A stretch of 64,000 bases of DNA from Acinetobacter portensis (GTDB lineage: Bacteria; Pseudomonadota; Gammaproteobacteria; Pseudomonadales; Moraxellaceae), in the NCBI RefSeq assembly GCF_023158935.1, contig NZ_CP096120.1:806001-870000 (forward strand). The letters are read 5' to 3'. The stretch's first letter is position 1. Each line of letters begins with the position of its first letter. Positions 8,756 through 60,832 of this stretch are shown one piece after another. The position numbers and the translations under genes are program-made. The notes beneath the pieces were generated by a model. It saw only the letters and a program-made list of their open reading frames with translations. It was not told where the DNA came from and ran no database searches.

Positions 8756-10075
8756 ATGAAGAAATTGACTCAAGAACACTTTCAAGAGCGTCGTGACATT
8801 CTTGCAGGTGAAATGGGGTTGCGAAGTATTGCGATTATTGCAACAAGTCCCGTTGCTATGCGTAATAACGATGCCGATTATAAATACCGAGCAGACAGCA
8901 GTTTCTTTTATTTAACAGGTTTTGCTGAACCTGAAGCTGTTGCAGTTATTGAAACTTTTGATACAGAAGAAGAGGGTTATTGTTATAGCCTTTTTTGTCG
9001 CGAACGAAACCGTGAAATGGAAATTTGGAACGGTTACCGCGCAGGTATAGATGGCGCAATAGAAAATTATGAAGCAGATGAAGCTTTTGCTATTGAAAGC
9101 TTAGATGAAGAAATTATTGGAAAACTAACAGATAAAGATAAAGTTTTTTACCGTATAGGACACGATGCAGACTTTGATATTCGTGTTGCAAAATGGGTTA
9201 AAAAAGCTGAAGAACAACAGCGCGGTGGTTTTAATACACCTGCACGTTTAATTCAGTTAAACCGAATTGTTGATGAAATGCGCTTGCATAAATCTGCCGA
9301 TGAAATTGAGCTAATGCAAATTGCATCAGACATTAGCGCAGAAGCACATACACGTGCTATGAAAGCCGTTAAACCCGGCATGATGGAATATGCTTTAGAA
9401 GCAGAATTAAATTATGTATTTGGTAAAAATGGTTGCGTACCTGCATATAACAGCATAGTTGGTGGCGGTGAAAATGCATGTATTTTGCATTATGTAGAAA
9501 ATGATCAAGAACTCAAAGATGGTGATTTAGTGTTGATTGATGCGGCATGTGAATATCAACTTTATGCATCTGACATTACACGTACTTTTCCTGTAAATGG
9601 TAAATTTAGTCCAGAACAAAAAGCTTTATATAATATTATTTTAGATTCGCAAATTGCTGCAATTGATGCAGTCAGAATTGGTAATTCATATAAAGAGCCA
9701 CACAATGTTGCGGTAAAAATATTGGTTCAAGGTTTACTTGATTTGGGCATTATGCAAGGCGATTTAGAACAAATTATTGCAAGTGAAAGTTATCGTCAGT
9801 TTTATATGCATGGAACAGGGCATTGGTTAGGCATGGATGTGCATGATGTTGGTTCATATAAAATGAATAGTCACTGGCGTAATTATGCCGAAGGTATGGT
9901 GGTTACGATTGAACCTGGTCTTTATATTGCCCCTGATGATTCAACTGTAGATGAAAAATGGCGTGGCATTGGTATTCGTATTGAAGATGATGTTGTGGTA
10001 ACCAAAAATGGTCCACTCGTTTTAACAAAGAATGTGGTGAAGACTGTAGAAGAAATAGAAGCTTTGATGGCGTGA
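8756..10075 (+). CDS. pepP: Xaa-Pro aminopeptidase PepP
   Basis: 439 residues, a normal length for PepP. An N-terminal aminopeptidase-P domain (DADYKYRADSSFFYLTGF) precedes the pita-bread M24 domain. The five metal ligands are visible near D262 (LIDAACEY), D273 (SDITRTF), H352 (HGTGHWLG), E385 (EPGLYI) and E409 (RIEDDV). It removes N-terminal residues preceding proline. In the usual order ubiH follows; here a 5.7-kb arsenic/IS island starts right at the stop codon, whose last base is the first base of the ATATT target duplication. Its probable native terminator is now at 15754. Confidence 0.95.
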   Translation: MKKLTQEHFQERRDILAGEMGLRSIAIIATSPVAMRNNDADYKYRADSSFFYLTGFAEPEAVAVIETFDTEEEGYCYSLFCRERNREMEIWNGYRAGIDGAIENYEADEAFAIESLDEEIIGKLTDKDKVFYRIGHDADFDIRVAKWVKKAEEQQRGGFNTPARLIQLNRIVDEMRLHKSADEIELMQIASDISAEAHTRAMKAVKPGMMEYALEAELNYVFGKNGCVPAYNSIVGGGENACILHYVENDQELKDGDLVLIDAACEYQLYASDITRTFPVNGKFSPEQKALYNIILDSQIAAIDAVRIGNSYKEPHNVAVKILVQGLLDLGIMQGDLEQIIASESYRQFYMHGTGHWLGMDVHDVGSYKMNSHWRNYAEGMVVTIEPGLYIAPDDSTVDEKWRGIGIRIEDDVVVTKNGPLVLTKNVVKTVEEIEALMA

Positions 10076-10079
10076 TATT

Positions 10080-11561
10080 TGTTATTCCCAAGTAGAAATG
10101 TCCTACCTAATAACCAAATAGAAATGTCCTATACAGGACTTTCCAAGTCAAGCACAGGATTCAGATTTCGTTCTTTGATTGCTGTTTTCTGTGCACGTCT
10201 ACGTGGCATCTTTTGAGAACGATTACGTTTGTTTTGCTGTTCCAATTCTTCATGCTGTTGCTGGATATGAGCCAAGACTGAACCCAAACGTTTATTCTCA
10301 ACGATCTCTCGCTGGTTGAGCTGACTTAACTTATCGAAGATGCTGTAATTGATCTTCCGACCTTGATGCTCAATCGCTACCGTACCATCAGGGTATTCCA
10401 GAAATTCAAGATATTTACCGATTAGCCTCTGATTTTCCTCTGTATTCTCCAGGAGATATACGCATTTATCATAAGTAATGGTCAAGCTATTCGTGACTCT
10501 ACGGGGTTCACGCCAGGTAAAAACATCATCTAATTCCTCAGCTGTTTCAGTGACAGTCCGGTGTAGATCCTTGGGATTAAAAGCCATCTTGGCAAATTTA
10601 CGATTAAACTGCTCGATAAAGTAGGGTAACCACTTATTCGCATCTGCAATCGAATTGATACCCTCCAGGCGCATTTCCTTGATCAGACGGTCCTGAAGGG
10701 TTCTGTTGGCACGTTCTACGCGACCTTTGGCCTGGGGTGAGTTAGCGAAGATGATATCGATATTGAGGGTACTGAGTACGCGTCCAAACTGGGTAATCTT
10801 GCTGTCTTTCTTGCTGCTTTGATTCACCCTAAAGACTGAATGTTTGTCGCTGTAAAACGCTAAAGGCTTACCATGCTGTTCAACATACAAGCGTGTCGAA
10901 ATCATATAGTCAAAGGCTGATTCTGATTCACAGAAGCGTAAATGCTGCAATTTGCCTGTGGCATCATCGATAAAGACTAGCAGACAGCATTTAGCGGCTC
11001 TTCCTTCAAACCAGTCATGGTGTGAGCCATCGATTTGTACCAGTTCACCATAACAATCTCGGTTATATCGAGGCTGATATGGGCGTTTCAGGCGCTTGGA
11101 GCGAGGAATCCATAAATCGGCTGCAATCATCCAGCAACGCAGGGTTTCCACTGAAAGATCGAATCCATGAACGGTAGTGAGCTTTTCATGCGCTAAAGTG
11201 GGTCCGAAACCATGGAGTTGATCCGAAACAATATTGAGGCACTTGAGTCTGAGTTCTTCAGGAAGTTTGCAGTTGCTGGTTTGGCCACGACCAGCATGGG
11301 CTAATGCAGCTGGGCCTTGAGCTTTGTATTTCTGCAGTAAGCGTCTGATCTGACGTTCTGAAATATGAAGTAGCTGAGCAGCCTGGGATTGAGTTATGCG
11401 TTGATCGCAGATTTCCTGCAAGACCGACAATCGTTTAAGTTCTTTATCCGACATAGACACCAACATATCAAACCGTCCGCTTCAATAATCGCAAAAGTGC
11501 ATATTCTAAAAGCGGACATTTTTACTTTGGAGAAACCGGACATTTCTATTTTGGGCTTACA
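10080..11561 (-). mobile_element. ISNCY/IS1202-group insertion sequence, left copy
   Basis: A 1482-bp element. The outer end begins TGTTATTCCCAAG and the inner end, read inward, TGTAAGCCCAAAAT; both continue to TAGAAATGTCC. The 5-bp direct repeat ATATT flanks it (10075-10079 and 11562-11566). The inner end lies exactly 5 bp from the XerC arm of a pdif site at 11567. It is the same element, apparently without change, as the copy at 14227-15708 in opposite orientation. Base composition is visibly richer in GC than its surroundings. Confidence 0.93.
10129..11466 (-). CDS. ISNCY-family transposase (left copy)
   Basis: 445 residues. An N-terminal helix-turn-helix (ITQSQAAQLLHISERQIRRL) is followed by an RNase-H-type DDE core: IDGSHHDW (first Asp), FYSDKHSVFR (second Asp) and KGRVERANRTLQDRL (Glu). 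The basic C terminus has KRNRSQKMPRRRAQK. The translation is identical to that of the copy at 14322-15659. The family is known for elements that insert next to Xer/dif sites, which fits the 5-bp distance seen here. Confidence 0.93.
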   Translation of the reverse strand: MLVSMSDKELKRLSVLQEICDQRITQSQAAQLLHISERQIRRLLQKYKAQGPAALAHAGRGQTSNCKLPEELRLKCLNIVSDQLHGFGPTLAHEKLTTVHGFDLSVETLRCWMIAADLWIPRSKRLKRPYQPRYNRDCYGELVQIDGSHHDWFEGRAAKCCLLVFIDDATGKLQHLRFCESESAFDYMISTRLYVEQHGKPLAFYSDKHSVFRVNQSSKKDSKITQFGRVLSTLNIDIIFANSPQAKGRVERANRTLQDRLIKEMRLEGINSIADANKWLPYFIEQFNRKFAKMAFNPKDLHRTVTETAEELDDVFTWREPRRVTNSLTITYDKCVYLLENTEENQRLIGKYLEFLEYPDGTVAIEHQGRKINYSIFDKLSQLNQREIVENKRLGSVLAHIQQQHEELEQQNKRNRSQKMPRRRAQKTAIKERNLNPVLDLESPV

Positions 11562-11566
11562 ATATT

Positions 11567-11594
11567 ATTTTGTATAAGAAATTTTATGTTAAAT
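11567..11594 (+). other. pdif Xer recombination site (left, XerC to XerD)
   Basis: XerC arm ATTTTGTATAA (11567-11577), 6-base spacer GAAATT, XerD arm TTATGTTAAAT (11584-11594). The XerD arm equals that of E. coli dif. The arsC stop is only 12 bp away. Orientation is opposite to the site at 14194. Confidence 0.88.
11569..11580 (+). repeat. 12-bp direct repeat, left member (partner 15744-15755)
   Basis: TTTGTATAAGAA covers most of the left XerC arm plus three spacer bases and recurs at 15744-15755 just before the displaced terminator. The pair may mark the boundaries of the integrated island. A chance match in AT-rich DNA is possible. Confidence 0.55.
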
Positions 11595-11606
11595 GAAGCG
11601 GATTTA

Positions 11607-12032
11607 TTAAATCCGCTTGCCATCTTTATTAATGATGATCTCACCATCTTCTTTGATAAAAGCACCAAGTTGAGGTGCAGACAAAATATCTAAAACGAGT
11701 TCAGATGGTCGACATAGTCTTACGCCTAACTCAGTCACCACAAATGGACGATTAATCAAAATTGGATACTCAAGCATAAAATTAATGAGCTGTTCATCTG
11801 TCCAGTGTGGCTGATCCAATTTATGAGTTTCAAAAGGTTCTACATTTTTACGAATAGCTTCATGTACAGAAAGACCTGATTTTTCAATTAAATTAATCAG
11901 TTCTCTCTTGCTCGGAGGGTTGAGAAGATACTCAATAATTTCAGGTTCCTCTCCGGTATTTCGAATTAAAGCCAGTGTATTTCTTGATGTTCCGCAAGCA
12001 GGGTTGTGATAGATCTTAACTTTTGATGACAT
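11607..12032 (-). CDS. arsC: Arsenate reductase ArsC (glutaredoxin-coupled)
   Basis: 141 residues with the R773-type ArsC layout: catalytic Cys13 in YHNPACGTSRNTL, then INRPFVV and LCRPSE carrying the arginines that hold arsenate. It reduces arsenate to arsenite using glutathione and glutaredoxin, feeding the Acr3 exporter. It is divergent from arsR-acr3-arsH across an 82-bp shared promoter. Its stop lies 12 bp from the left pdif site, so the gene is an edge of the Xer module. Confidence 0.95.
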   Translation of the reverse strand: MSSKVKIYHNPACGTSRNTLALIRNTGEEPEIIEYLLNPPSKRELINLIEKSGLSVHEAIRKNVEPFETHKLDQPHWTDEQLINFMLEYPILINRPFVVTELGVRLCRPSELVLDILSAPQLGAFIKEDGEIIINKDGKRI

Positions 12033-12059
12033 TGGATTAACTCAGAACTTAATAATATT

Positions 12060-12105
12060 GCATTTATATATGGATATGCGTATATTCGCAATAGCATATA
12101 TTAGA
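12060..12105. promoter_or_regulatory. Shared ars promoter with candidate ArsR operator
   Basis: The 82-bp gap between arsC and arsR holds interrupted dyads: ATATATG (12066-12072) with CATATAT (12095-12101), and within them ATATGCG and CGCAATA. ArsR-type repressors bind such AT-rich imperfect dyads over divergent ars promoters and release on arsenite. Exact operator limits are not fixed by inspection. Confidence 0.5.
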
Positions 12106-12114
12106 GTGTAGATT

Positions 12115-12429
12115 ATGAATCAAGCAGATTTCTTTAAATGCCTATCTGACCCGACACGTCTAGATATTTTAAAAATTATTTTAGCAAGACAAAATGTATG
12201 TGTTTGTGAAATCACAGAGATCTTACAACTGAGCCAACCCAAAATTTCTCGTCACTTGGCTTTACTCCGTAACCTCTCAATTTTGCTAGATGAGCGTAAG
12301 GGACAATGGGTGTATTACCGTTTAAATCCAGATTTACCAGTATGGGCAACTTCTATCCTTAATGTTTTAAAGGATGAGGTATTGAATATACCTTCGAGCA
12401 ATTTATCTATTTCTATGCAATGTGAGTAA
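12115..12429 (+). CDS. arsR: Arsenic-responsive repressor ArsR
   Basis: 104 residues with an ArsR/SmtB winged helix: LSDPTRLDILKII, then metal-site NVCVCEI (Cys29 and Cys31) and recognition helix LSQPKISRHLALL. The CVC pair in the helix is the R773-type As(III)/Sb(III) sensor. It should repress both its own operon and divergent arsC until arsenite is present. acr3 starts 4 bp after its stop, so the genes are translationally close. Confidence 0.94.
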   Translation: MNQADFFKCLSDPTRLDILKIILARQNVCVCEITEILQLSQPKISRHLALLRNLSILLDERKGQWVYYRLNPDLPVWATSILNVLKDEVLNIPSSNLSISMQCE

Positions 12430-12433
12430 TTGA

Positions 12434-13468
12434 ATGTCCGCATCCAAACTCTCATTTTTAGATCGTAACCTTACGTTATGGATCTTTATTGCCATGGCAT
12501 TAGGCGTAGGTGTTGGGGTGTTTTTCCCTCAAATATCTGTGGTGCTCGATCAATTAAGCATTAATTCAGTAAATATCCCTATCGCTATAGGGCTTATTTT
12601 GATGATGTATCCACCACTTGCCAAAGTAGACTATGCGACCTTGCCTAAAGTCTTTGAGGACAAGCGAACCCTTACATTGTCTCTTATTCAAAACTGGCTA
12701 ATTGCACCTTGCTTAATGTTTGGTTTGGCAATTATTTTTTTGCACGCCTATCCCGAATACATGACTGGTCTCATTCTGATTGGTTTAGCCCGATGTATTG
12801 CGATGGTCTTGGTTTGGAATAACTTGGCAGGTGGGGATAATCAGTATGTGGCAGCCTTAGTGGCATTTAACAGTATCTTCCAAATTTTATTCTTTAGTAC
12901 CTATGCTTGGTTGTTCTTGACCTTCTTACCACCATTTTTTGGGGTAGAAGCACAAATTATTGATGTGGGTTTTTGGACAATCACCCAAGCTGTACTGATT
13001 TATCTCGGCATCCCGTTCTTACTCGGCTTTTTAACTCGATTAATTTTAGTTAAAAACAAAGGTTTGAATTGGTATCAAGATAAATTTATTCCAAAAATCA
13101 GCCCAATGAGTCTTATCGCCCTTTTATTCACCATTGTGGCGATGTTTAGCCTGAAAGGTAGCGAAGTCGTCAGCCTTCCTCTAGACGTGCTTAGAATTGC
13201 TATTCCTTTGACGATCTATTTTGTTGCAATGTTCTTCATCAGCTTCTTTATGAGTAAGTGGATGGGCAATGATTACCCTAAAACGACTGCTATTTCCTTT
13301 ACTGCGGCAGGCAACAATTTTGAATTAGCACTTGCTGTAGCCATTGCCACTTTTGGATTAGCTTCACCTGTCGCTTTCACTACCGTGATTGGCCCACTTG
13401 TAGAAGTACCTGTATTGATTGCTTTAGTGATCGTATCACTATGGCTGAGAAAAAAAGTATTTAAATAG
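12434..13468 (+). CDS. acr3: Acr3-family arsenite efflux permease
   Basis: 344 residues with about ten membrane segments. It has the Acr3-type [15 protein letters not shown] segment and the essential-cysteine segment [18 protein letters not shown] (Cys near residue 121), plus [17 protein letters not shown]. It exports arsenite across the inner membrane, driven by the proton gradient. It belongs to the Acr3 family, not to E. coli ArsB. It lies between arsR and arsH in a compact operon. Confidence 0.94.
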
Positions 13469-13479
13469 GCATGAGTTGA

Positions 13480-14184
13480 ATGAACTTACCCAATATTGAT
13501 CTTAGTCTTTTAGAAAAACCGAGTTTAGAAAAAGTTCAGGCAAAGAAGCTTGAACATCCACCAAGAATACTGCTTCTGTATGGCTCAAATCGTGAGAGAT
13601 CATATAGCCGTTTAGCTGTTCAGGAAGCTGGTCGAATCCTTGAGTATTTTGGTGCGGAAGTGAAAATTTTCCATCCTAAAGGGCTACCTCTCCCTGAAGA
13701 TGGTGATATGCAACATCCAAGGGTGAAAGAACTACATGAACTCTTAGCATGGTCAGAGGGCATGGTTTGGTGTTCTCCTGAGCGTCATGGCTCAATGAGT
13801 TCAATATTGAAAGCTCAAATTGATTGGATTCCATTAGCAGCAGGTGCAATACGTGCAACGCAAGGTAAAACTTTAGCTGTGATGCAAGTATGTGGCGGTT
13901 CACAGTCGTTTAATGCTGTAAATCAATTGCGTATTTTAGGACGTTGGATGCGTATGATTACGATACCCAATCAGTCCTCAGTTCCTAAAGCATTTCTTGA
14001 GTTTGAAGAAGATGGTCGTATGAAACCTTCTTCTTATTACCAAAGAATTGTAGATGTAATGGAAGAACTTTATAAATTTACGCTTTTAACCAGAGGGCAG
14101 TCAGCATATCTCACTGATCGTTACTCTGAACGTGTAGAAAGTGCGGAAGAGCTTTTAAAACGTGTGAATCAGAAGAGTATTTAG
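13480..14184 (+). CDS. arsH: ArsH, NADPH-dependent FMN reductase/organoarsenical oxidase
   Basis: 234 residues with a flavodoxin-like fold: [15 protein letters not shown] near residues 30-44 is the FMN-phosphate loop, and [20 protein letters not shown] is typical of ArsH. ArsH oxidises trivalent organoarsenicals and is a common last gene of ars operons. It starts 11 bp after acr3 and ends 9 bp before the right pdif site, so the cassette fills the module almost completely. Confidence 0.94.
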
Positions 14185-14193
14185 ATTTCCTAA

Positions 14194-14221
14194 AATTAAC
14201 ATAATACACCTTATACTAAAT
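14194..14221 (-). other. pdif Xer recombination site (right, inverse to the left site)
   Basis: On the plus strand: XerD arm AATTAACATAA (14194-14204), spacer TACACC, XerC arm TTATACTAAAT (14211-14221). Read on the minus strand this gives XerC arm ATTTAGTATAA, spacer GGTGTA, XerD arm TTATGTTAATT, very close to Acinetobacter plasmid pdif sites as I recall them. The IS copy begins 5 bp beyond the XerC arm. Confidence 0.9.
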
Positions 14222-14226
14222 GCTAT

Positions 14227-15708
14227 TGTAAGCCCAAAATAGAAATGTCCGGTTTCTCCAAAGTAAAAATGTCCGCTTTTAGAATATGCACTTTTGCGAT
14301 TATTGAAGCGGACGGTTTGATATGTTGGTGTCTATGTCGGATAAAGAACTTAAACGATTGTCGGTCTTGCAGGAAATCTGCGATCAACGCATAACTCAAT
14401 CCCAGGCTGCTCAGCTACTTCATATTTCAGAACGTCAGATCAGACGCTTACTGCAGAAATACAAAGCTCAAGGCCCAGCTGCATTAGCCCATGCTGGTCG
14501 TGGCCAAACCAGCAACTGCAAACTTCCTGAAGAACTCAGACTCAAGTGCCTCAATATTGTTTCGGATCAACTCCATGGTTTCGGACCCACTTTAGCGCAT
14601 GAAAAGCTCACTACCGTTCATGGATTCGATCTTTCAGTGGAAACCCTGCGTTGCTGGATGATTGCAGCCGATTTATGGATTCCTCGCTCCAAGCGCCTGA
14701 AACGCCCATATCAGCCTCGATATAACCGAGATTGTTATGGTGAACTGGTACAAATCGATGGCTCACACCATGACTGGTTTGAAGGAAGAGCCGCTAAATG
14801 CTGTCTGCTAGTCTTTATCGATGATGCCACAGGCAAATTGCAGCATTTACGCTTCTGTGAATCAGAATCAGCCTTTGACTATATGATTTCGACACGCTTG
14901 TATGTTGAACAGCATGGTAAGCCTTTAGCGTTTTACAGCGACAAACATTCAGTCTTTAGGGTGAATCAAAGCAGCAAGAAAGACAGCAAGATTACCCAGT
15001 TTGGACGCGTACTCAGTACCCTCAATATCGATATCATCTTCGCTAACTCACCCCAGGCCAAAGGTCGCGTAGAACGTGCCAACAGAACCCTTCAGGACCG
15101 TCTGATCAAGGAAATGCGCCTGGAGGGTATCAATTCGATTGCAGATGCGAATAAGTGGTTACCCTACTTTATCGAGCAGTTTAATCGTAAATTTGCCAAG
15201 ATGGCTTTTAATCCCAAGGATCTACACCGGACTGTCACTGAAACAGCTGAGGAATTAGATGATGTTTTTACCTGGCGTGAACCCCGTAGAGTCACGAATA
15301 GCTTGACCATTACTTATGATAAATGCGTATATCTCCTGGAGAATACAGAGGAAAATCAGAGGCTAATCGGTAAATATCTTGAATTTCTGGAATACCCTGA
15401 TGGTACGGTAGCGATTGAGCATCAAGGTCGGAAGATCAATTACAGCATCTTCGATAAGTTAAGTCAGCTCAACCAGCGAGAGATCGTTGAGAATAAACGT
15501 TTGGGTTCAGTCTTGGCTCATATCCAGCAACAGCATGAAGAATTGGAACAGCAAAACAAACGTAATCGTTCTCAAAAGATGCCACGTAGACGTGCACAGA
15601 AAACAGCAATCAAAGAACGAAATCTGAATCCTGTGCTTGACTTGGAAAGTCCTGTATAGGACATTTCTATTTGGTTATTAGGTAGGACATTTCTACTTGG
15701 GAATAACA
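14227..15708 (+). mobile_element. ISNCY/IS1202-group insertion sequence, right copy
   Basis: A 1482-bp copy of the element at 10080-11561 in inverted orientation. The direct repeat GCTAT flanks it (14222-14226 and 15709-15713). This differs from the left copy's ATATT, so each copy entered by its own insertion. The inner end is 5 bp from the right XerC arm, the same geometry as on the left. Confidence 0.93.
14322..15659 (+). CDS. ISNCY-family transposase (right copy)
   Basis: 445 residues, identical in translation to the left copy, with the same helix-turn-helix, DDE catalytic residues and basic tail. The frame is complete, so the element may still be active. The start MLVSMSDKELKRL lies about 95 bp inside the element end. 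Confidence 0.93.
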   Translation: MLVSMSDKELKRLSVLQEICDQRITQSQAAQLLHISERQIRRLLQKYKAQGPAALAHAGRGQTSNCKLPEELRLKCLNIVSDQLHGFGPTLAHEKLTTVHGFDLSVETLRCWMIAADLWIPRSKRLKRPYQPRYNRDCYGELVQIDGSHHDWFEGRAAKCCLLVFIDDATGKLQHLRFCESESAFDYMISTRLYVEQHGKPLAFYSDKHSVFRVNQSSKKDSKITQFGRVLSTLNIDIIFANSPQAKGRVERANRTLQDRLIKEMRLEGINSIADANKWLPYFIEQFNRKFAKMAFNPKDLHRTVTETAEELDDVFTWREPRRVTNSLTITYDKCVYLLENTEENQRLIGKYLEFLEYPDGTVAIEHQGRKINYSIFDKLSQLNQREIVENKRLGSVLAHIQQQHEELEQQNKRNRSQKMPRRRAQKTAIKERNLNPVLDLESPV

Positions 15709-15743
15709 GCTATTTTTTATTTTATATAAATCATATTGTTATG

Positions 15744-15755
15744 TTTGTATAAGAA
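15744..15755 (+). repeat. 12-bp direct repeat, right member (partner 11569-11580)
   Basis: TTTGTATAAGAA, identical to most of the left XerC arm plus three spacer bases. What follows (GTCCAGACC) is not an XerD arm but the displaced terminator, so this looks like half of a recombined site. Confidence 0.5.
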
Positions 15756-15784
15756 GTCCAGACCTATCGATCTGGGCTTTTTAT
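15754..15784 (+). terminator. Terminator between the ars island and ubiH, probably the native pepP terminator
   Basis: AAGTCCAGA pairs with TCTGGGCTT (one T-G pair) and is followed by T's. The nearest complete upstream gene today is a transposase, but without the island this hairpin would lie about 25-30 bases after pepP. The rest of the gap to ubiH (15785-15975) shows nothing further. Confidence 0.7.
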
Positions 15785-15975
15785 GGATTCATCATGTTTA
15801 ACGATCAATTGTTAAAGACGGTTCCACAATTTTTATAAAATATTTTAGAGAATCAAAAAATCTTCTTTGCAGGAACCATTATTAAAAACCTCATCTTTAA
15901 GGTAATATAAAATCCATTAAAGATTTTAGGTATTTCGAGCCAAAACCTCGAAAACAGCATAAGAAGGATACAGGC

Positions 15976-17184
15976 ATGCAACAAGAAGTAATCATTGTTG
16001 GTGGTGGTATGGTGGGGCTAAGTTTATCCCTAATGTTAGCTAAACAAAACATTGCAGTGAAGCTACTCGAAGCCATTAAATATCCAAATTATGACGATGC
16101 AAATCTTGCACCATATCATTCGAGTTTTGATGCACGAAACAGCGCACTTTCACGCCGTAGCGTACAAATTTATCAAGAACTTGGTTTATGGGATTCACTA
16201 CAAGAACATGCAACACCAATTTTACAAGTTCATATTACAGAACAAGGTAGCTTTGGTAAGGCACGTTTAAAAGCAGAACAAGAAAAAGTAGAAAGCTTTG
16301 GACAAGTCATTGAAAATGCATGGTTAGGTCGCGTGTTACTTACTCAAGTTCAAAAAGAAAAAAATATTGAACTGATTGATGGCGTAAAAGTGACATCCCT
16401 TACGCAAACTGAAAATGAAGCAAACATTGAAGCAGAGCGAGATGGCGAAAAACTATCGCTTACTGCAAAACTTGTTATAGCAGCAGATGGTCGAGATTCT
16501 TTCTGCCGTAAAGCACTAGGTGTTGGTGCATCTGTACATGATTATGATCAAGTTGCCATAGTGACAACTGTTCAAACATCAAAACCTCACGATCATGTTG
16601 GTTTTGAGCGTTTTAGCCATTTAGGACCTTTAGCATTACTTCCTTTACCAGGTGAATACCGTCGCTCAGTAGTTTGGCCTGTAAAAAAAGGTACAGAAGA
16701 TGAATGGTTGGGCGATGAAAATGATCAACACTTTTTAGATGCCTTACAAGAAACCTATGGCGACCGCGCGGGTAAATTTGAAAAAACAGGCAAACGTTTC
16801 TGCTTCCCACTTTCACAAGTACTTGCAGAAAAACAAGCGGTAGGGCGTGTTGTGCTAATGGGTAATGCTGCTCATACCATTCATCCTGTTGCAGGGCAAG
16901 GTTTTAACTTATGCATGCGTGATGCTTATGTATTGGTGCGTTATTTAACAGAGCAACTGGCTAAATCGGAAGATATTGGTGAACCATCAATGCTTTTAGA
17001 TTATGAGAAATCACGTTTAACAGATCAACAACGTGTGATTAAATTCTGTGATTCTGTTGTGCGTGGTTTTAGTAATCAAAATCCAATCTTAAAACTTATT
17101 CGCAATACCGGTTTGCTCGCTTTTGACCTTATTCCAGGTATTAAGCCATTAGTTGCAAACTACGCAATGGGGCTAAAAGCATGA
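15976..17184 (+). CDS. ubiH: 2-octaprenyl-6-methoxyphenol hydroxylase UbiH
   Basis: 402 residues of the UbiH/UbiF/VisC/Coq6 FAD monooxygenases of ubiquinone synthesis. It has the N-terminal FAD motif IIVGGGMVGLSLSLML, the middle motif VIAADGRDSFCRKAL and the C-terminal GNAAHTIHPVAGQGFNLCMRD. The HITEQGSFGKARL segment points to UbiH rather than UbiF or UbiI. It overlaps the next hydroxylase gene by 4 bp (ATGA), indicating coupled translation. Normally it follows pepP. Confidence 0.9.
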   Translation: MQQEVIIVGGGMVGLSLSLMLAKQNIAVKLLEAIKYPNYDDANLAPYHSSFDARNSALSRRSVQIYQELGLWDSLQEHATPILQVHITEQGSFGKARLKAEQEKVESFGQVIENAWLGRVLLTQVQKEKNIELIDGVKVTSLTQTENEANIEAERDGEKLSLTAKLVIAADGRDSFCRKALGVGASVHDYDQVAIVTTVQTSKPHDHVGFERFSHLGPLALLPLPGEYRRSVVWPVKKGTEDEWLGDENDQHFLDALQETYGDRAGKFEKTGKRFCFPLSQVLAEKQAVGRVVLMGNAAHTIHPVAGQGFNLCMRDAYVLVRYLTEQLAKSEDIGEPSMLLDYEKSRLTDQQRVIKFCDSVVRGFSNQNPILKLIRNTGLLAFDLIPGIKPLVANYAMGLKA

Positions 17185-60344: not shown

Positions 60345-60832
60345 ATTACCTATGCTTTTGTCCCACATACCAGCCCACATAAAAATAAAGATAGTGTGAA
60401 ACACAATGAGTTGTCTTAATACATGTTCAGCAATTCTATTTTTCTTTCTCAGTATTTTAAACTGTTATTCAGTTTTACGATTTTTCATATTATTAAGATA
60501 GTCGTGAATATTTACCGTAAAAAAAACTGCATGATTTATGGTCATGCTGTTTTCATTAATATATGAGCCTATCTGTAATACTGAGATCGTCCTCATTCAA
60601 CGGTGAGCTTACAGACATCGTCACCTATTCTAAATAAATAGTTTGGAATTAAAAGCTGAGCTTTTAAGGTCTTGAGACGATTACCGACGAGTAGAAGGAC
60701 TTTAATTTTTAAATGTAAGTTAAAACTTCTAAAGTTGACATAACACACGCTATACGAGATTTGTTATTTTTCAATAATATAGCCTGCTTTTAAAAGCCCT
60801 AATTTACTGTTGGTGCTTTTTCTTTGGTTTTA
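60345..60832. other. Decayed accessory DNA without an intact gene
   Basis: No reading frame of useful length is seen. The stretch lies between the second tRNA-Ser and a CdiA/FhaB-like fragment. It holds a small palindrome near 60647 (TAAAAGCTGAGCTTTTA) and a dif-like site at 60733-60760. It looks like the remnant of a larger insertion. Confidence 0.5.
60733..60760 (-). other. Diverged dif/pdif-like site
   Basis: On the plus strand: AGTTGACATAA, spacer CACACG, CTATACGAGAT. Each arm differs from the pdif pattern (AATTAACATAA and TTATACGAAAT) at two positions, and spacing is exactly 11-6-11. Orientation equals the right ars site. Possibly a decayed or secondary Xer site. Confidence 0.5.

Follow-up and report, generated by a model that had tools for sequence, protein, structure and literature searches.

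An arsenic-resistance dif module with insertion sequences at both sites in the pepP–ubiH gap of an Acinetobacter portensis chromosome

In a 64,000-nucleotide stretch of Acinetobacter portensis DNA (contig NZ_CP096120.1, positions 806,001 to 870,000; hereafter the window), four arsenic-resistance genes, arsC and arsR-acr3-arsH, lie between two complete, inversely oriented 28-bp dif-like sites, at 11567-11594 (+) and 14194-14221 (-), whose XerD arms face inward. The contig is chromosome-sized and the location is the gap between the core genes pepP and ubiH; sites and cargo together are a dif module of D type on the chromosome. Comparison with plasmids and related genomes points to an ars module that would have been exchanged by XerCD into a recurrent chromosomal landing locus, pepP–ubiH, and later tagged by insertion sequences (ISs) that hunt dif sites, with no flip of the cassette expected. 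We give this account a probability of about 0.7.

Both sites have a perfect XerD arm and a single mismatch in the 8-base XerC core used for scanning. With at most two mismatches allowed, the window contained no other sites, and neither the reversed window nor five shuffles contained any. A chance origin of such dif-like sites, here and in the gaps of relatives, was rejected on reversed, shuffled and expected-count controls. At up to three mismatches a third, weak dif-like site appeared at 60733 (-), at the level of the reversed control, which also gave one. The arsC stop codon is 12 bp from the left site and the arsH stop codon 9 bp from the right site. These distances, together with the coordinates and arms, confirm the original prediction that the four ars genes are packaged between inverse Xer sites. 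Its placement of the module between pepP and ubiH was right as to location; two ISs intervene, so the module does not directly adjoin either gene. A profile search of the genome returned a XerD gene above the cut-off, plus a second Xer-like recombinase.

The same cargo and sites occur as a discrete unit in other contexts. A search of PLSDB, which the original prediction had proposed as a check, found the module on Acinetobacter plasmids: in seven of 72,556 records a match covers 80% or more of the ars segment, with identities of 89.3-91.5%. In five of them homology set in with the opening base of the left XerD arm (query position 23), in the other two at query position 6; in all seven it ended within the right site or at its outer end. 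The arsC-side XerD arm is perfect in every copy, while the adjoining spacers vary: CCGCCA, GAGATT, GAGTTT, CACCCA and, in three plasmids sharing one changed XerC base (two of them probably one strain), CAACCA. The GAGATT spacer, on a plasmid of A. variabilis XM9F202-2, is one base from the GAAATT of the window. Both arms and the spacer (GGTGTA or CGTGTA) of the arsH-side site are kept in six of the seven; among these, three A. lwoffii plasmids have a single altered base in the XerD arm, and two A. variabilis plasmids a single altered base in the XerC core. In plasmid H4 the site is truncated within the spacer, and an annotated IS66-type element adjoins. Immediately beyond the left XerD arm the plasmid copies differ among themselves, and a varying spacer and XerC arm beside a constant interior is what exchange inside the site leaves.

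Fourteen copies from other genomes were also examined. Six have both sites in register, and two more (L055 and L056) have both at slightly shifted places. The copies on chromosome-sized contigs (G163, G048 and G026) have one or both sites decayed, and none is at pepP–ubiH. Among the matches listed, the GAGATT spacer turns up at numerous dif-like sites across the genus, and a left-site spacer of this class therefore does not identify pepP–ubiH; GAAATT was seen once among those matches and once in the A. portensis genome itself, at C6:69840.

We surveyed 100 stretches upstream of ubiH in related genomes, taken from the upper part of the BLAST list and hence a non-random draw from 175 genomes. 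Thirteen carry a site of the window's orientation 304-388 bp before ubiH; in the window the right site lies 295 bp before ubiH when the IS and one copy of its target duplication are left out. Between site and ubiH, 12 relatives share 57-67% identity with the window, and in eight of these (G113, G040, G159, G137, G122, G125, G165 and G104) the part of the flank nearest the site scored better than all, or all but one, of 200 shuffles. Across 97 genomes (G008, with a gap of about 23 kb, and G071 were excluded), the whole pepP–ubiH gap ranges from 28 bp to 10.8 kb, with 16 gaps of at most 250 bp and 57 longer than 1.2 kb, long gaps having been sought out deliberately. Dif-like sites are present in 15 of these gaps at up to three mismatches, 12 at up to two and 11 at up to one. 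Of 60 pepP–ubiH intervals chosen for length, 59 gave a ubiH match and entered a scan (one of them, G008a, probably matched ubiH falsely and contains no site). These 59 intervals (201 kb) contain 31 sites, compared with one in the reversed and 0-2 in the shuffled sequence. Under the strict pattern there are nine sites in 0.201 Mb against 0.79 expected from 58 genomes, plasmids included, a Poisson comparison that is only indicative given rounded sizes and close species that are not independent. The original prediction would have been undercut by an arrangement ancestral across the genus, which the relatives show in part. No ars module was found in the 100 gap sequences of relatives, whereas the dif-like site before ubiH is common to many species. 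One interval, in G088 (L288), contains a low-complexity open reading frame (ORF) of a repeated NQSI unit.

Cargo at this locus differs between related genomes in a way that respects the sites. In G040 and G137 the ends of the gap are collinear (81 bp at pepP and 365 bp at ubiH, about 95% identity), and a 1.19-kb segment with GNAT and DinB-family genes is inverted between them, its ends at or inside inverse dif sites. For the pairs G165/G159 and G159/G125, collinearity breaks off no more than 2 bp from where the left site ends and picks up again 6-7 bp ahead of the ubiH-side site; the genes in the interval differ. G165/G124 has the same left end as G165/G159, with an extra insertion before it in G124, and becomes collinear again 14 bp before the G165 site. 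G159/G122 (same arrangement throughout) and G113/G010 (aligning only at the ubiH end and in one short stretch) were not informative. The compared pairs share genomes and are not independent, and these are comparisons of assemblies, not experiments. In G124, G159, G125 and G165 (L266, L267, L283 and L285), a conserved three-gene block near pepP stays while the cargo nearer ubiH changes.

On this account, a plasmid with the ars module would have recombined with the chromosome at one compatible dif pair, either on the GGTGTA side or on the GAAATT/GAGATT side, to form a cointegrate; XerCD recombination at the other pair would then have resolved it, the ars module replacing earlier cargo. Two copies of a dif-hunting IS1202-family element would later have transposed separately to 5 bp outside each XerC arm. 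We infer entry through XerCD by cointegrate formation and resolution from these sequence comparisons, which likewise suggest that the right site is an old resident of the locus. The broader proposition is about an even chance: that pepP–ubiH is a widespread landing and exchange locus, with a long-lived dif-like site before ubiH and often an inverse partner towards pepP, where XerCD swaps and occasionally inverts cargo with plasmids, so that the terminus dif is not the sole chromosomal dif in lasting use.

Several observations weigh against these readings. No recognisable site is present in 82 of the 97 gaps. The flank beside the site is no better than shuffles in G108, G011, G088 and the closest relative, G071, and in a similar flank test eight of 62 site-less genomes reach at most 5 of 100 shuffles. 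G071, 87% identical over ubiH and the next gene, has a three-mismatch relic before ubiH and other sequence after pepP. On a tree of 41 rows, in which 14 rows bearing the right site were compared with 4 that have other sites alone and 23 were left out, the site is no more clustered than shuffled labels, requiring four changes against a shuffled mean of 3.7, with 500 of 500 shuffles as low, a count that favours neither view. With the IS left out, only 4 bp and no hairpin separate the pepP stop codon from the left site, and the pepP-side site of relatives lies about 45-50 bp (G040, G137 and G010) or about 120 bp (G108) after the stop; the left site may thus not be orthologous to theirs. Searches of PLSDB and of genomes for a donor closer than 91.5% found none. 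The comparative cases have blemishes of their own: an additional dif-like site lies within the inverted G040/G137 segment, G125 has a three-mismatch relic as its left site, and in G124 the site on the ubiH side has degenerated. Agreement between the outer spacers is five of six positions in G040 and two of six in G137, so that the left site of G137 must have changed later if XerCD acted.

Two candidates at the locus were set aside. G071 was unusable as an empty site, since pepP and ubiH are on different contigs with other sequence beside each. A hairpin to the right of the right IS was considered as a displaced pepP terminator and dropped, as it aligns with the relatives' hairpin between the ubiH-side site and ubiH.

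Acinetobacter is often competent, and homologous recombination, perhaps after uptake of a larger fragment by natural transformation, may instead have brought in the ars module; the dif sites would then be old module edges without XerCD action here. The position of the left junction, which is not where relatives have their left site, and the lack of a similar flank at the right site in the closest relative would fit such an entry. Against it stand the plasmid homologies, five of the seven beginning exactly with the opening base of the left XerD arm and the plasmids differing among themselves immediately beyond it, and the fact that, at this locus, both the changes in cargo and the one inversion have their ends no more than a few bp from dif sites. 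We consider this explanation unlikely, and XerCD-mediated exchange the better account.

The original prediction held that inverse sites would allow XerCD to flip the cassette. In the accessible parts of two papers, XerCD inversions between pdif sites involve 6-bp spacers that are identical or have one mismatch (PMC13141974, PMC11705084). The window spacers, GAAATT and GGTGTA, match at only two of six positions, and we rejected a flip in the present state on these grounds; because the present spacers differ, a flip is not expected, and judged from the sequence it is unlikely. That the cassette is an invertible XerCD switch is accordingly a very improbable reading. The sites are inverse and well formed, and an inversion between dif sites is seen at this locus in the pair G040/G137. 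Against this stand the spacer rule and the fact that the flipped state was not seen, the arsH-side spacer of the six plasmids that keep this site being GGTGTA or CGTGTA, as in the window.

Just outside both sites lie two identical 1482-bp ISs in inverse orientation, which the original prediction had missed. At each, the 5 bp that separate the IS from the XerC arm are one copy of the target duplication. The right-copy transposase scores 486 bits against NF033594 (cut-off 250), and the left transposase is identical; both are 445 amino acids long and belong to the ISNCY family. According to the accessible part of Harmer, Pong & Hall 2023 (PMC10132070), IS1202-family elements of ISAjo2 type target positions 5 bp from the XerC arm of dif-like sites. 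The window ISs resemble this type in length, in their TGT...ACA ends with imperfect terminal inverted repeats (19 of 26 outer bases matching), in transposase size (published range 441-457 amino acids), in the 5-bp duplication, and in their position 5 bp from the XerC arm in fixed orientation, left end towards the site. They differ in that identical copies struck both sites of one module. Because each has its own 5-bp duplication and obeys the published spacing rule, the two were inserted separately; they are independent insertions at two sites of one module. It is scarcely credible that the two identical inverted ISs flanking the ars segment carried it into pepP–ubiH as a composite transposon with the dif sites as passengers, and we rejected this, since a move as one unit would duplicate only the outermost flanks whereas ATATT/ATATT and GCTAT/GCTAT are separate, the ISs keep the 5-bp distance to a XerC arm that is seen elsewhere in this genome, and in the seven plasmid copies homology breaks off at a dif site or inside it. 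Homologous recombination between the inverted ISs could turn the cassette around; because the 5-bp duplications are unmixed, an odd number of such inversions since both insertions is excluded.

Ten full-length copies of this IS are present in the genome. In nine, the 5-bp flanks match and the left end stands 5 bp from a dif-like site; one of the nine adjoins a site with spacer TGTATA, presumably the terminus dif. The tenth (C1:2477781-2479262, L023) has unmatched flanks and no dif-like site at 5 bp, though there is one at a distance of about 400 bp, and is probably rearranged. The best full-length plasmid match to the IS in PLSDB is 95.1% identical, and six records have partial places of at least 99%. 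At three chromosomal places (C1:1241028-1243954, 970179-973082 and 2477781-2480579; L023-L025 and L034-L036), a second IS-like element, 73-74% identical, comes after the ISAjo2-type IS, and GTTTT separates the two in every case. Two of the three adjoin dif-like sites, one of them the presumed terminus dif. At C1:968685-970173 (L004 and L005) a second chromosomal pair of inverse dif-like sites, separated by about 1.5 kb, encloses small ORFs that by eye resemble membrane proteins; an IS copy adjoins one of the two sites. Of the 34 dif-like pattern matches in the genome, 27 are on contigs C4, C5 and C6, presumably plasmids.

Family assignments of the cargo and neighbouring genes are given in Table 1. 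Going by these families, the probable roles of the cargo are to reduce arsenate, export arsenite and detoxify organoarsenicals; the gene layout suggests promoters controlled by ArsR between arsC and arsR.

Table 1. Features of the ars module and its surroundings in the window.
Feature	Position	Strand	Details
pepP, Xaa-Pro aminopeptidase, left chromosomal neighbour	8756..10075	+	NCBIfam NF008131 above cut-off
IS1202-family (ISNCY, ISAjo2-type) IS, 1482 bp	10080..11561	-	Transposase ORF 10129-11466 (-); same sequence as the other copy; ATATT duplicated at 10075-10079 and 11562-11566
Left dif-like site	11567..11594	+	XerC ATTTTGTATAA / spacer GAAATT / XerD TTATGTTAAAT; XerC arm 5 bp from IS
arsC, glutaredoxin-type arsenate reductase	11607..12032	-	NCBIfam TIGR00014 above cut-off
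Divergent arsC/arsR intergenic region	12033..12114		Gene layout; ArsR-controlled promoters presumed
arsR, ArsR/SmtB-family repressor	12115..12429	+	NF007528 and NF033788 above cut-off
acr3, arsenite efflux transporter	12434..13468	+	TIGR00832 above cut-off
arsH, arsenical resistance protein	13480..14184	+	TIGR02690 above cut-off
Right dif-like site	14194..14221	-	XerC ATTTAGTATAA / spacer GGTGTA / XerD TTATGTTAATT, read on the - strand; counterpart of the site before ubiH in relatives
Second, identical IS1202-family IS	14227..15708	+	Transposase ORF 14322-15659 (+); duplication GCTAT at 14222-14226 and 15709-15713
ubiH leader	15714..15975		Initial 150 bp similar to the sequence flanking the ubiH-side site in 8/12 relatives tested (alignment, shuffle control)
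ubiH, right chromosomal neighbour	15976..17184	+	NF004356 above cut-off; TIGR01984 1.7 bits under cut-off

Earlier work has already described dif modules, their chromosomal forms and dif-hunting ISs, to judge from the accessible parts of the relevant papers (PMC6449649, PMC12907356, PMC10132070). The original prediction had described dif modules as known mainly from plasmids, a view that published chromosomal examples (PMC6449649, PMC12907356) do not bear out. Like the D-type dif (pdif) modules of Acinetobacter plasmids (PMC13141974; PMC6449649; Blackwell & Hall 2017), the window module has its cargo between inverse 28-bp XerC-spacer-XerD sites with the XerD arms internal, and the same ars module is found on plasmids at 89-91.5% identity; it differs in being chromosomal and in having an IS at both sites. 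In common with reported chromosomal modules and extra dif sites (PMC6449649; PMC12907356), it is bounded by dif-like sites away from the terminus dif. What sets it apart from those, as far as their accessible text goes, is its position in a core-gene gap used in several species, with comparative signs of exchange and inversion. A literature search that included PMC9501444 and covered little of the subscription literature found no ars cargo named as a dif module, which is weak evidence, and PMC12907356 lists a chromosomal arsH. The same search found no description of pepP–ubiH as a dif locus, the accessible text of the Acinetobacter pdif papers holding neither 'ubiH' nor 'pepP', again weak evidence of absence; this chromosomal swapping place may be previously undescribed.

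The recurrent pepP–ubiH locus is the more interesting and stronger part of these results than the ars cassette itself, whose type is known; the cassette adds an ars module and a case of one dif-hunting IS striking both sites of a single module. Dif modules shuffle adaptive and resistance genes among Acinetobacter plasmids, and additional chromosomal dif sites have been proposed as donors and acceptors of modules on the strength of few examples (PMC6449649, accessible part). A defined core-gene gap with site-bounded cargo that is swapped or inverted would offer a fixed place for testing plasmid-chromosome exchange by XerCD.

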